Source of the DNA: Candidatus Magasanikbacteria bacterium RIFCSPHIGHO2_02_FULL_48_18
Lineage (GTDB): Bacteria; Patescibacteriota; Patescibacteriia; Magasanikbacterales; UBA922
DNA length: 36,416 nucleotides
Direction: 5' to 3'
Assembly: GCA_001784285.1 (NCBI GenBank)
Contig: MFQC01000008.1
Coordinates: 49,913 to 86,328, forward strand
In this document: positions 1-4,410 of the stretch, in pieces
How the letters are laid out: each line of letters opens with the position of its first letter
Position numbering within the stretch: position 1 is the first letter of the stretch
Position numbers and translations under genes: made by a program
The notes under the pieces: generated by a model
What the model was told of the DNA's origin: nothing
What the model saw: only the letters and a program-made list of their open reading frames with translations
Database searches by the model: none

Positions 1-60
1 TCGGTCTTCGGATACACGCGGCCCCATTATATGACATTGCGCCCTTAACTGTTAAAATAA
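1..60 (+). repeat. Dispersed repeat, left copy flanking the EamA gene
   Basis: The first bases carry a block with the words GGATACACG, TATATG and TTGCGCCC. The same words in the same order occur on the opposite strand after the EamA gene (about 495-545). The word ATACACGCGGCCCCATT (12-28) also recurs at 5996-6012 with 15 of 17 bases the same. I see no gene here; the window edge cuts the repeat. Confidence 0.5.
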
Positions 61-64
61 AAAT

Positions 65-490
65 ATGAATTGGATTTTTCTTGCAATCATGACGGCTATC
101 TTTTATGGAGCATACAATGTCTTCATCAAAGTTTCGTCAGGCCACATCAATCAAATAGTTGGAGCTGTAATTCTTCAAATCGTAGCCGCACTTGTGGGCG
201 GAATTATTCTTTTGATAATGAAGATGACGAACAGCCCATTAGAAATATCTCAAAAAGGAGTTTTGTTTGCAGTTCTTGCTGGTATTTTCGTAGGATTAGC
301 TGAAATTACTTCGTTCTTCGTCTTTTCAAAAGGTGTCTCCGCATCAGTCGGAATTCCAATTATTATAGGTGGTTCTGTATTAGTCGGGGCTGTTCTTGGC
401 CTGACTTTTCTCAAAGAGACGCTCAATCCAATCCATTATGTAGCAATTGCCATGGTTGTGGTGGGGGTGATCATACTTTCTACTAAGTAG
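65..490 (+). CDS. EamA/DMT-type small membrane transporter
   Basis: A 141-residue, very hydrophobic protein with about four to five membrane helices (roughly residues 1-20, 30-52, 65-88, 94-113 and 120-139). It resembles one half of an EamA-type drug/metabolite transporter: a polar FIKVS stretch follows helix 1 and the last helix is preceded by FLKETLNP, a typical EamA loop. Single-domain members of this superfamily are thought to work as dimers; the substrate cannot be read from the sequence. The ATG follows an A-rich stretch with no Shine-Dalgarno site. The gene lies between two related, oppositely oriented short sequences (about 5-43 and 495-545), which suggests it sits in a mobile cassette. 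Family call fairly sure, function unknown. Confidence 0.75.
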   Translation: MNWIFLAIMTAIFYGAYNVFIKVSSGHINQIVGAVILQIVAALVGGIILLIMKMTNSPLEISQKGVLFAVLAGIFVGLAEITSFFVFSKGVSASVGIPIIIGGSVLVGAVLGLTFLKETLNPIHYVAIAMVVVGVIILSTK

Positions 491-494
491 GGCG

Positions 495-545
495 GGCGCA
501 ACAGCATATAACAGCGTATAGCAGGTTCGTGTATCCTCTCTGACC
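495..545 (-). repeat. Dispersed repeat, inverted copy after the EamA gene
   Basis: Read on the minus strand this stretch has GGATACACG, then TTATATG, then TTGCGCCC, matching the block at the start of the window. It also contains GCGTATAGCAG (514-524), whose inverted copy lies at 1051-1061 beyond hicA. It therefore serves both as the right flank of the EamA gene and the left flank of the hicBA pair. Confidence 0.5.
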
Positions 546-549
546 CAAA

Positions 550-564
550 TTTGACTTATTTTTT
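550..564 (+). repeat. Left inverted repeat of the hicBA cassette
   Basis: TTTGACTTATTTTTT is the exact reverse complement of AAAAAATAAGTCAAA at 1033-1047. Together with the outer pair GCGTATAGCAG (514-524) and CTGCTATACGC (1051-1061) it frames the hicBA genes. Confidence 0.75.
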
Positions 565-602
565 CCTTGGAGGTACATTGAAAGTACAGTAATTTCTAAA
601 AT

Positions 603-824
603 ATGCGCAAAATAGACCTCAAATCAGTGGTGTGGAAAGAAGGTAGGTATTATATCTCTCAATGTTTAGATGTGGATGTTTCAAGCTTTGGCAAGACCAA
701 AAAAGAAGCCCTTGCGATGCTTGAAGATGCCTTGAATCTGTATTTTGAAGATGTACCGCCACCAAAGAAGACGGAACGAGTAAAGCGTCCGGTTATTGCT
801 TCGGTGCAGCTTCAGTATGCCTAA
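603..824 (+). CDS. hicB: HicB-family antitoxin
   Basis: A 73-residue protein with the HicB partial RNase H-like fold: the strand WKEGRYYISQCLDVDVSSFGKTKKEA is followed by the helix ALAMLEDALNLYFED. HicB binds and silences the HicA mRNA interferase and usually represses its own promoter. No C-terminal DNA-binding domain is obvious, so this is a short HicB. The start is ATG right after an AT-rich leader with no Shine-Dalgarno site. It precedes and overlaps hicA by 8 bases, so the pair is translated together; the antitoxin-first order is a known variant. The pair is enclosed by perfect inverted repeats (550-564 and 1033-1047). Confidence 0.88.
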   Translation: MRKIDLKSVVWKEGRYYISQCLDVDVSSFGKTKKEALAMLEDALNLYFEDVPPPKKTERVKRPVIASVQLQYA

Positions 825-1041
825 ACCCTATCCAGTTCGACTGGTGATTCAAGTCCTTGAACGCAAGGGCTTCTTTTTTGTGTCACAGTCTGGCAGTCAT
901 GCCAAATACAGAAAGAAGGGAAATCCTACTCTCACGGTCATTGTTCCGATTCATGGAAAAGATATTCGGTATGGCACCTTTCGGTCTATTTTGCGCCAAG
1001 CAAAATTGAAAGAAAGTGATTTTCAGAAAGAGAAAAAATAA
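817..1041 (+). CDS. hicA: HicA-family mRNA interferase toxin
   Basis: A 74-residue protein of the HicA double-stranded-RNA-binding-like fold. The catalytic histidine is in GSHAKY, after the usual LERKGFFFVSQ strand, and the later IVPIHGKDIRYGTFRSILRQA segment is the typical HicA end. HicA cleaves mRNA and slows growth unless HicB is present. The start used here is the ATG overlapping the end of hicB (MPKPYPV); an upstream TTG would add seven residues but lies deep in hicB. The stop codon is inside the right inverted repeat of the cassette, so the repeat and the gene end were fused. Family is clear. Confidence 0.9.
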   Translation: MPKPYPVRLVIQVLERKGFFFVSQSGSHAKYRKKGNPTLTVIVPIHGKDIRYGTFRSILRQAKLKESDFQKEKK

Positions 1042-1061
1042 GTCAAACTTCTGCTATACGC
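1033..1061 (-). repeat. Right inverted repeats of the hicBA cassette
   Basis: Contains AAAAAATAAGTCAAA (1033-1047), which includes the hicA stop, and CTGCTATACGC (1051-1061). Both are perfect inverted copies of sequences on the left of hicB. The gap between the two words is 3 bases here and 25 bases on the left. Confidence 0.75.
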
Positions 1062-1101
1062 GAACGTTCAGCAAAATTGTAATTTTTTTATCACGTAAAC
1101 T

Positions 1102-2460: not shown

Positions 2461-2719
2461 TTGAACGAATTCGCCCCCCCCCCTTTGAGTGAACGAAAAA
2501 ATAAAAAGTGTAAAAATAATTTACAATTTACATCCGATAACACCGAGTATCTGGTTACGCTCCGCTCCACCCACATTGCTTCGCAACATCAGATACTCGG
2601 GAACATTATACGCAATTCAAAAAATGAATTATAAAGCGCCGTAAAGCCGACAACAGCACATATATCTCCGCCGCCTGCTCGGTAGCTCCGCCCTCCGGGG
2701 ACATACGGAGTACCGAACG
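2461..2719. other. Intergenic stretch with two long hairpins
   Basis: No gene is visible here. A C-homopolymer tract follows the fic stop. CCGAGTATCTG (2543-2553) pairs with CAGATACTCGG (2590-2600), 11 bases perfect. TCGGTA plus CTCCG (2679-2690) pairs with CGGAG plus TACCGA (2706-2716). The second hairpin lies just past the stop of the small minus-strand reading frame at 2720-2827 and could end its transcript. Confidence 0.5.
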
Positions 2720-2840: not shown

Positions 2841-2870
2841 TTGCGCGTAAGTTGCGCGATTCTTGCGCGA
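2841..2870 (+). repeat. Three 11-base direct repeats over the fic-2 promoter
   Basis: TTGCGCG occurs at 2841, 2852 and 2863, exactly 11 bases apart, each followed by a similar tail (TAAG, ATTC, ATTC). One turn of DNA per repeat would put the three words on the same face of the helix. The third copy is the -35 box of the promoter of the second fic gene. Confidence 0.7.
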
Positions 2871-2891
2871 TTCCCACATATCTGCTATACT
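2863..2891 (+). promoter_or_regulatory. Promoter of the second fic gene
   Basis: TTGCGC (2863-2868), a 17-base spacer and TATACT (2886-2891). The expected transcript start is near 2898, so the leader is only about 16 bases. The -35 box is the last of three TTGCGCG repeats. Confidence 0.65.
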
Positions 2892-2913
2892 GTCTATAGT
2901 CATCCGATTCTAT

Positions 2914-3972
2914 ATGTTTTCACCAAAATACAAACTCACCAACAAAATTTTGGCTGACCTCACTGCTGTTGCAGAAGCAAAAGGAATTATTGATCGTGCC
3001 AAAATTCTGCCAAAGCAAGAATTGCGTTTGCGCCGGCAGGCCACAATTCGCATGACACACCACTCTACGGAGATTGAAGGCAATCGGCTTAATATACAGC
3101 AAGTAGAAGCACTGTATGCTAAGAAAAAAATAGATGCGCCTGACAGAGATATTCACGAGGTGCAAAATTACTTAAACGCATTAAAGTATATTGAAAAATT
3201 GGTCGCAGAAAAAAAGCCCACAACTGAAAAGGTCATTTTGCAAATTCACAAGCTCGTCACGGCAAAAACAATGGATACAAAATTTTGCGGCACATATCGC
3301 CCGGGGCCGATCTACGTTGTCCGTCGACGACTTGGCATGCCACAAGAAACAATCTATACCGGGCCAGTTGCAAAACGTGTGTCCAAACTCATGGAAGTAT
3401 TTGTTGACTGGCTGAAAATAAGTGAAGAAAAAGAAGTAAATCCCGTTATCGTGGCCGCGATTGCTCATCTTGAAATCGCCGCAATTCACCCGTTCAACGA
3501 CGGCAACGGCCGTACTGCTCGCGCACTTGCAACACTGCTGTTATACCAGCGCGGATATGATTTTCGACGTTTATTTGCACTCGAGGATTATTACAATACT
3601 GGTAGGCAATCTTATTACAAGGCAATTAATCTTGGTAAAACATACGACGAAAGAAAAAATGATATTACATCTTGGCTTGAATATTTTACTAAAGGTTTCA
3701 GGAAAGAAATTGATACTGTAAAGTATACTATTCTCGTGCTTTCATCCCGCAAGGTTGACGGGAAGATAAAATCACAAATTTATCTCAGGCCCGAACAGCT
3801 CAAAATTATTGATTTTCTTGATCAAATGGGCAGAATTACTGCCAAAGATGTCGAGGATGTATTGTCTATACCAAAACGAACCGCACAGCTTCACGTTGAG
3901 AAGCTCAAAAAAATAAAGATGATAAAACAGGTTGGCAAAGGACGAGCAACCTATTACATTGCGAATAATTGA
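2914..3972 (+). CDS. Second Fic-domain protein (class II) with winged-helix tail
   Basis: A 352-residue Fic protein, a paralogue of the one just upstream but clearly divergent. The catalytic motif HPFNDGNGR (192-200) is complete and the N-terminal inhibitory motif STEIEG (51-56) again marks class II. A C-terminal winged helix (about 290-352, with RPEQLKIIDFLDQMGRITAKDVEDVL and a basic LKKIKMIKQVGKGR) suggests DNA binding. I chose ATG 2914 because the upstream TTG that opens the frame is the -35 box of the likely promoter. Ends in TGA. Predicted role: AMP transfer to a protein, possibly as a toxin or regulator; the target is unknown. Confidence 0.9.
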   Translation: MFSPKYKLTNKILADLTAVAEAKGIIDRAKILPKQELRLRRQATIRMTHHSTEIEGNRLNIQQVEALYAKKKIDAPDRDIHEVQNYLNALKYIEKLVAEKKPTTEKVILQIHKLVTAKTMDTKFCGTYRPGPIYVVRRRLGMPQETIYTGPVAKRVSKLMEVFVDWLKISEEKEVNPVIVAAIAHLEIAAIHPFNDGNGRTARALATLLLYQRGYDFRRLFALEDYYNTGRQSYYKAINLGKTYDERKNDITSWLEYFTKGFRKEIDTVKYTILVLSSRKVDGKIKSQIYLRPEQLKIIDFLDQMGRITAKDVEDVLSIPKRTAQLHVEKLKKIKMIKQVGKGRATYYIANN

Positions 3973-4098: not shown

Positions 4099-4410
4099 AT
4101 GAAAAAAATCATTATCGGTATCATAGTCGCCATCACAGCCATACTTTTTTGGTCGCCTTGGATGGGCGAAGGTGGTGGAGAAGATGTTATCCAAAAAGTT
4201 CAACAAAAAGAAAGTGTTAAGGCTGAAATGGAAGAGCTCACAAGCAAATACGGATATCAGGCAACACTATCGTACAACACGCACTTTGAGGTTCCACTCC
4301 CTTCGGTCGCTACGCCCATGTTTGGCGCCGATGTAGCACTCCGTACTAAAATTATTCCAGTTCCAAACATCGCAAAGTGCGGAACGTTGAAATATATTTT
4401 TACTTTTTAA
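4099..4410 (+). CDS. Small membrane-anchored protein, unknown
   Basis: A 103-residue protein with one N-terminal membrane segment (residues 3-20, KIIIGIIVAITAILFW) followed by an acidic and helical part (GEDVIQKVQQKESVKAEMEELTSKYGYQ). The last 30 residues read oddly, and the DNA there contains CTTCGGTCGCTACG, a common low-complexity repeat word, so the native C-terminus may have been replaced by inserted repeat DNA. ATG 4099 is preferred to an in-frame TTG nine bases upstream. No family recognised. It ends 17 bases before the formyltransferase-like gene. Confidence 0.5.
   Translation: MKKIIIGIIVAITAILFWSPWMGEGGGEDVIQKVQQKESVKAEMEELTSKYGYQATLSYNTHFEVPLPSVATPMFGADVALRTKIIPVPNIAKCGTLKYIFTF

Follow-up and report, generated by a model that had tools for sequence, protein, structure and literature searches.

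A hicBA gene pair framed by the arms of an attC-like site in an integron-like cassette array of a Patescibacteria genome

Why should a toxin-antitoxin pair be enclosed by two nested, perfect inverted repeats? The question arises from a 36,416-nucleotide stretch of DNA from Candidatus Magasanikbacteria bacterium RIFCSPHIGHO2_02_FULL_48_18 (here the window), which starts at position 49,913 of contig C8; positions below are those of the window unless a contig or locus is named. A preliminary description had proposed that positions 514 to 1061 are a small mobile element with a hicBA cargo and no transposase of its own. The repeats on which it relied are both exact: the outer arm word GCGTATAGCAG at 514 to 524 has its exact complement at 1051 to 1061, and the inner arm word TTTGACTTATTTTTT at 550 to 564 has its exact complement at 1033 to 1047, extending to 19 nucleotides at 547 to 565 and 1032 to 1050 (95% match). 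Perfect nested arms also occur within the hicBA genes, at 605 to 618 with 983 to 996 and at 698 to 716 with 862 to 880. In the genome (1,100,898 bases, 99% complete), GCGTATAGCAG and TTTGACTTATTTTTT are each present exactly twice, one copy per arm, and are therefore not scattered words; had they been found alone across the genome, the proposed pairing would have failed. When one or two mismatches were allowed, TTTGACTTATTTTTT gave 34 more matches, a total of 36 that is close to the 26 of a reversed-pattern control.

The explanation that we consider probable is that hicBA lies in the loop (the variable terminal structure) of an attC-like site closing an EamA cassette, within an integron-like array whose integrase is the tyrosine recombinase P0001; from this arrangement we infer mobility, expression, and addiction. 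The anatomy of the hicBA attC-like site and the site family to which it belongs are well supported. The features are as follows, each with its basis in parentheses.

1 to 26, plus strand: end of a ~187-bp gene-less cassette, ending in ..CGCGGCCCCA^TT (sequence).
27 to 1066, plus strand: integron-type cassette with an EamA gene and an attC-like site holding hicBA in its loop, with junctions A26^T27 and G1066^T1067 (R box complementarity TTATATG/CATATAA; chain test).
65 to 490, plus strand: EamA-family membrane protein of 141 aa, an ordinary cassette gene (Pfam PF00892, E 1e-10).
505 to 512, plus strand: R'' box CATATAAC of the attC-like site (sequence; family alignment).
514 to 524, plus strand: outer arm L'' (helix 1) (repeats, alignment, covariation).
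525 to 549, plus strand: asymmetric left internal loop GTTCG...CTGACCCAAA, conserved in the family, with 3 nucleotides on the opposite side in the family model (alignment).
550 to 565, plus strand: inner arm (helix 2), coinciding with the hicBA -35 region, TTGACT at 551 to 556 and -10-like TACATT at 574 to 579 (sequence; homologs).
603 to 824, plus strand: hicB, antitoxin-like, 73 aa (adjoins hicA in the homologous loci checked).
605 to 618, plus strand: internal coding arm, partner 983 to 996 (recurs in framed homologs).
698 to 716, plus strand: internal coding arm, partner 862 to 880 (recurs in framed homologs).
820 to 1041, plus strand: hicA toxin, 73 aa (PF07927, E 2e-17).
1032 to 1047, plus strand: right side of the inner arm, overlapping the last hicA codons and the stop (sequence; homologs).
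1051 to 1061, plus strand: outer arm L', right side of helix 1 (repeats, covariation).
1062 to 1073, plus strand: spacer GAAC and R' box GTTCAGC, junction G^TT (sequence; family alignment).
2531 to 2613, plus strand: attC-like site of the ordinary kind, following the first Fic gene (1366 to 2460) (site model R1, 63 bits).
4268 to 4394, plus strand: attC-like site of the ordinary kind, following the second Fic gene (site model R1, 82 bits).

The ends of the EamA cassette are complementary (TTATATG at 27 to 33 versus CATATAAC at 505 to 512), and hicBA as a whole (603 to 1041) falls inside the attC loop. The unit is thus larger than the element of 514 to 1061 first proposed, running from 27 to 1066 and including the EamA-family gene. 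As in known HicBA systems, the locus has overlapping genes, a HicA toxin domain (PF07927, 63 bits against a cut-off of 27), and a small HicB-like partner; it differs in that hicB is the first gene and that the HicB-like protein, of only 73 aa, matched no HicB model, its only match being to PF24113 (DUF7387), just below the cut-off. That the inner repeat takes in the hicA stop, as had been noticed at the outset, follows from its position: the left arm coincides with the hicBA -35 region and the right arm with the last part of hicA. The same double use—TTGACT as the -35 box of hicBA and GAAAAAATAA opposite it as the hicA end—accounts for the conservation of the inner arm, and the conserved TTTG/CAAA base of helix 2 is consequently common to the site and the hicBA promoter. 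TTGACT stands 17 nucleotides before the -10 box, and homologs have the same layout, with -10 boxes TAAAAT, TATGAT, or TATAAT. On the right, there is no match between the R' box GTTCAGC and the next R'' found, which indicates that the downstream boundary has been disturbed. The two Fic proteins in the neighboring cassettes (1366 to 2460 and 2863 to 3972) have SoFic-like matches and are a defense-like cargo.

The array extends from about 44.1 kb to at least 54.3 kb of contig C8. Cassettes upstream of the window (C8 44.1 to 49.9 kb) encode GNAT, HAD-like, and metallo-beta-lactamase fold proteins and unknown genes, and the hairpins between them have the form TAACA-arm-GGTTC..CCCAAATTTG-inner arm..inner arm-CAAACTTC-arm-GAACGTT; hicBA sits in one such hairpin. 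The ~187-bp gene-less cassette, which ends in A^TT and not G^TT, is present in six copies (C8 44,130, 44,853, 45,519, 46,598, 49,029, and 49,802), and these copies probably account for the N gaps in the assembly within the array. No Rfam match was found anywhere in the array. An attC-like site at C8 46,076 to 46,602 (L026:6076-6602) has a ~490-nucleotide loop that is apparently non-coding and has long complementary arms at its ends; this loop had no Rfam match and a folding z score of -8.3. At C8 ~49.1 to 49.7 kb (L003:3137-3670), a 119-aa orphan open reading frame lies inside two nested inverted repeats of another kind, GTAATAGCGAAAAG and TTTCTGGTAATTTGTTATTGC.

The identity of the framing repeats is given by sites that have no cargo. 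An alignment of 16 cargo-free sites from the genome and its relatives contained two nested helices, the same as the repeats framing hicBA, with 96.8% of cells paired versus 65.8% in shuffles (0 of 500 shuffles as high as observed) and at most 51% when slid. At 19 of 22 helix pairs both sides change across the sites, so that folding as paired arms, as in attC, is present as two covarying helices. Helix 1 consists of 11 contiguous pairs, with an extra base in 1 of 16 sites, and no extrahelical base was conserved in the L'' arm across the 16 aligned sites. What stands of the original proposal is a mobile type of unit with a toxin-antitoxin cargo, a paired geometry, and no recombinase inside the repeats; the unit is not an inverted-repeat element of transposon or MITE-like type, because its arms make up both helices of an attC-like site. 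A MITE or terminal-inverted-repeat transposon was also rejected on the grounds that the outer arms differ between copies and that no target-site duplication was seen by eye at the window copy. No empty sister site carrying these arms was found.

Two other origins of the frame were weighed against this reading. In a nested form of the original proposal, the pair and the inner repeat might together make up a small inverted-repeat element, autonomous or dependent on a transposase, for which attC loops are the insertion target. The inner arm pair does accompany hicBA outside attC loops, in L203 (in an ordinary cassette body) and in L105 (20-bp arms, no outer arms), but the left inner arm serves as the hicBA promoter, and several unframed homologs (L096, L115, and L122) have it with no right arm; the TTTG/CAAA at the base of the helix belongs to the attC-like family itself; and there is neither a target-site duplication by eye at the window copy nor a recognizable transposase gene in the neighboring cassettes. 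We regard such an element as unlikely. Still less credible is that two ordinary attC sites once flanked a normal hicBA cassette and that one lost its right half and the other its left half, the remaining halves matching by accident. Deletions between attC sites are to be expected in an array, and the R' after the hicBA site mismatches the next R''; nevertheless, arms differ between array sites, yet 11 of 11 outer and 15 of 15 inner bases match here, and other genomes have this arrangement with arms that differ from these. Moreover, arm pairs with long loops numbered 16 in relatives' arrays versus 2 in reversed-sequence controls; the 16 include a few repeat encounters of a single place through overlapping loci and one pair whose arms come from separate sites.

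A first, crude site scanner could not distinguish arrays from control (31 versus 27) and was replaced by one giving 25 versus 4 and then by model R1, built from the 16 sites. R1 matched in 37 of 46 genomes of the host's family, where matches were clustered; in the host genome they were confined to C8 44.7 to 54.3 kb, all on the plus strand. If cassettes are excised as circles, the R'' of a site should be complementary to the R' after the preceding site. Over 38 site pairs, the mean complementarity was 4.05 of 6 positions versus 3.31 for random pairs, with 14 perfect matches and 0 of 5,000 permutations as high; such chaining is an expected consequence of excisable circular cassettes. When the site scanner was run on 15 loci with a canonical IntI and 15 XerA-type loci, it returned one poor match and none, respectively, which indicates that this form of site is specific to these genomes.

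The framed arrangement is not unique to the window. Among 30 HicA loci examined from a search of the class, 5—L093 (the window's own), L094, L103, L107, and L118—had an intact attC-like frame, and some of the others keep one half of the site. The paired geometry that the preliminary description had suggested seeking in related DNA therefore recurs in four other genomes of the class, with HicA identities to the window copy of 93 to 52%. Since L093 and L094 are near relatives, the framed copies represent about four independent cases. They adjoin other attC-like sites, and their outer arms vary, except that those of the window and L094 are identical. The upstream cassette gene is EamA in the window, a 101-residue frame in L094, and NUDIX-like (by eye) in L118, while in L103 no gene lies between the previous site and the hicBA site. 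The right-arm pattern matched only three times in 380 genomes of the phylum, so framed hicBA is rare and mostly within the class. No HicA of the window type was found in a search of viral contigs. Cargo other than hicBA was seen in the long-loop sites L248:536-1225 (a 141-aa orphan protein), L250:2301-2878, and L252:3698-4278, the last two with possible small genes on the minus strand.

The candidate integrase, P0001, is a tyrosine recombinase of 280 aa encoded 6.4 kb upstream (C8 43,211 to 44,050, minus strand) and transcribed away from the array, as in integrons. In this genome, and similarly in about ten relatives, an attI-like junction, GTTSGNATAACRGNAG^TTARSTGAAAT, was recognized by sequence ~80 to 150 bp from the start of the integrase. 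The protein scored 259.7 against the integron integrase model TIGR02249 (cut-off 265), the highest of its model scores. Its best PDB match was VchIntIA (2a3v), in two pieces between which IntI residues 186 to 238 were unmatched. The catalytic residues R138, K163/K166, H227, R230, H253, and Y262 are invariant in 15 orthologs, and the IntI-specific additional domain (the I2 helix) is absent: the corresponding interval is 8 residues in all 21 proteins of the family versus 37 to 40 in 21 canonical IntIs. In a phylogenetic tree, IntIs with the I2 segment formed one clade (100/100), and two I2-less groups from the host's family neighbored it (87/88 and, weakly, 78/57). By these comparisons, no other kind of recombinase is more closely related to integron integrases than that of P0001, which nevertheless lacks the IntI-specific I2 segment. 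Named relatives of the family's integrases include proteins of Magasanikbacteria, Moranbacteria, and Peregrinibacteria. The missing I2 fits the lack of a conserved extrahelical base in the helix 1 stems, and the unequal internal loop (long on the left, ~3 nucleotides on the right) could substitute for that base in strand choice. Because two defining features, the I2 segment and the extrahelical bases of attC, were looked for and not found, we call the array integron-like and not an integron.

P0001 also resembles XerA and XerC/D in exceeding the cut-off of the XerA-type model NF040815, in its length, and in having no I2 segment; it differs from them in its place at the attI-like end of a cassette array and in scoring highest against the integron model. 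It is conceivable that a canonical IntI (with I2) built the array elsewhere and that P0001 is a housekeeping XerA-like neighbor. Sites were found in 9 of 16 genomes without a strong P0001 ortholog, as in integrase-less arrays, but also in 28 of 30 genomes with one, and orthologs in relatives lie divergently at the attI-like end, as P0001 does here. The 99%-complete genome has only two tyrosine recombinases, neither reaching the IntI cut-off, and a canonical IntI above the cut-off was detected in just 1 of 381 genomes of the class (L265; G249:C17:2627-3577). Together with the lack of a conserved extrahelical base, these observations make an outside IntI improbable. The second recombinase of the genome (358 aa; C8:21,974-22,924, L025) is probably a housekeeping Xer.

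Can a site of ~560 bp, its loop holding two genes and a promoter, still fold? Replacing the terminal structure had minor effects on recombination in one studied site (PMC2727003), which makes cargo there plausible. Described attC sites measure 57 to 141 bp, and folding can suffer when the terminal structure is large (PMC5371416); for a large site to work, its cargo would therefore have to be foldable. With shuffles that held protein and codon content fixed, the hicBA coding stretch in the window folded at -69.9 kcal/mol versus -44.6 +/- 5.0 in the shuffles (z -5.1), and the other intact framed copies gave z of -4.2, -4.7, -8.4, and -3.1; the median for 24 unframed homologs was -1.0 (framed versus unframed, P = 6e-5). 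For the whole unit, codon-preserving z was -6.9 on the bottom strand and -6.0 on the top strand, and an independent folding tool with dinucleotide shuffles gave -7.1. The whole loop of the window site had z -7.6, and eight other cargo loops (four hicBA, one non-coding, three with other or uncertain genes) ranged from -4.4 to -9.3, compared with a mean of -0.8 for cassette bodies. Random stretches of the genome sometimes fold strongly (5 of 18 below z -4), and the argument is accordingly carried by the cassette-body and codon-shuffle controls.

This excess might instead reflect RNA structure in hicBA regulation, or codon composition, and not single-stranded DNA folding for recombination. Both strands fold unusually well, as do five unframed homologs (L098, L208, L211, L115, and L116); a few unframed copies are near z -3, and the internal arms fall within conserved motifs (TKKEAL and KGFFFV). 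On the other hand, the excess follows the attC frame and extends to loops with other cargo, the non-coding one included. Both internal arms recur in framed copies, where the synonymous variants ATA, ATC, and ATT in hicB are matched by TCT, TCG, and TCA in hicA. Single-hairpin symmetry (a count of symmetric pairs) separated framed from unframed copies weakly (P = 0.03), and the P value of a comparison of internal arms was set aside, as the second arm had scored zero where the motif match failed. An RNA or codon explanation is in our view doubtful, though less so than the alternatives above.

Under the attC-loop reading, one strand of the site would fold, with the outer arms, inner arms, and R boxes pairing. 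P0001 would recombine the site at G^TT with the attI-like site or another attC, and EamA and hicBA would move together as one circle or insertion. With the inner arm as its -35 box, hicBA would be expressed autonomously, so that loss of the cassette should be penalized, a putative addiction through which hicBA may stabilize the array. The coding sequence would have been shaped to fold, keeping the ~560-nucleotide site usable.

The array resembles integrons in its divergent integrase, attI-like junction, G^TT, complementary R''/R' cassette ends, variable stems, and one-gene cassettes. It differs in an integrase without the I2 segment, in stems without a conserved extrahelical base but with a large asymmetric internal loop in the site instead, and in that some sites carry genes in the loop. 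It is apparently an undescribed, simpler kind of integron, hosted by very small bacteria. In sedentary chromosomal integrons, the toxin-antitoxin module is a cassette gene upstream of attC; hicBA is inside attC and shares its cassette with another gene. A toxin-antitoxin module in a cassette array is itself a point of likeness, and in such integrons (e.g., those of Vibrio) these cassettes are thought to stabilize arrays (PMC5371416). We found no report of genes within attC loops, or of the integron type of these Patescibacteria, in the open-access literature searched, where absence is weak evidence.

It is possible, though we advance it only tentatively, that Patescibacteria have a living integron type, beside and possibly outside the known IntIs, that uses folded single-stranded attC-like sites with neither the I2 helix nor extrahelical bases, and in which genes, mostly a toxin-antitoxin pair, are fitted into attC loops with codons selected so that the coding DNA folds within the site. 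The most parsimonious account of how integron integrases arose is that an ancestral tyrosine recombinase gained I2, and no ancestor sequence inferred by phylogeny is available (PMC7790495). An I2-less recombinase of today with an attI-like site and an attC-like array, in clades adjoining IntI, makes the question of I2 origin directly testable. Codons constrained by the folding of a recombination site would mean that coding and structure overlap in a new manner, and hicBA in an attC loop would give a simple way of tying an addiction module to any cassette.
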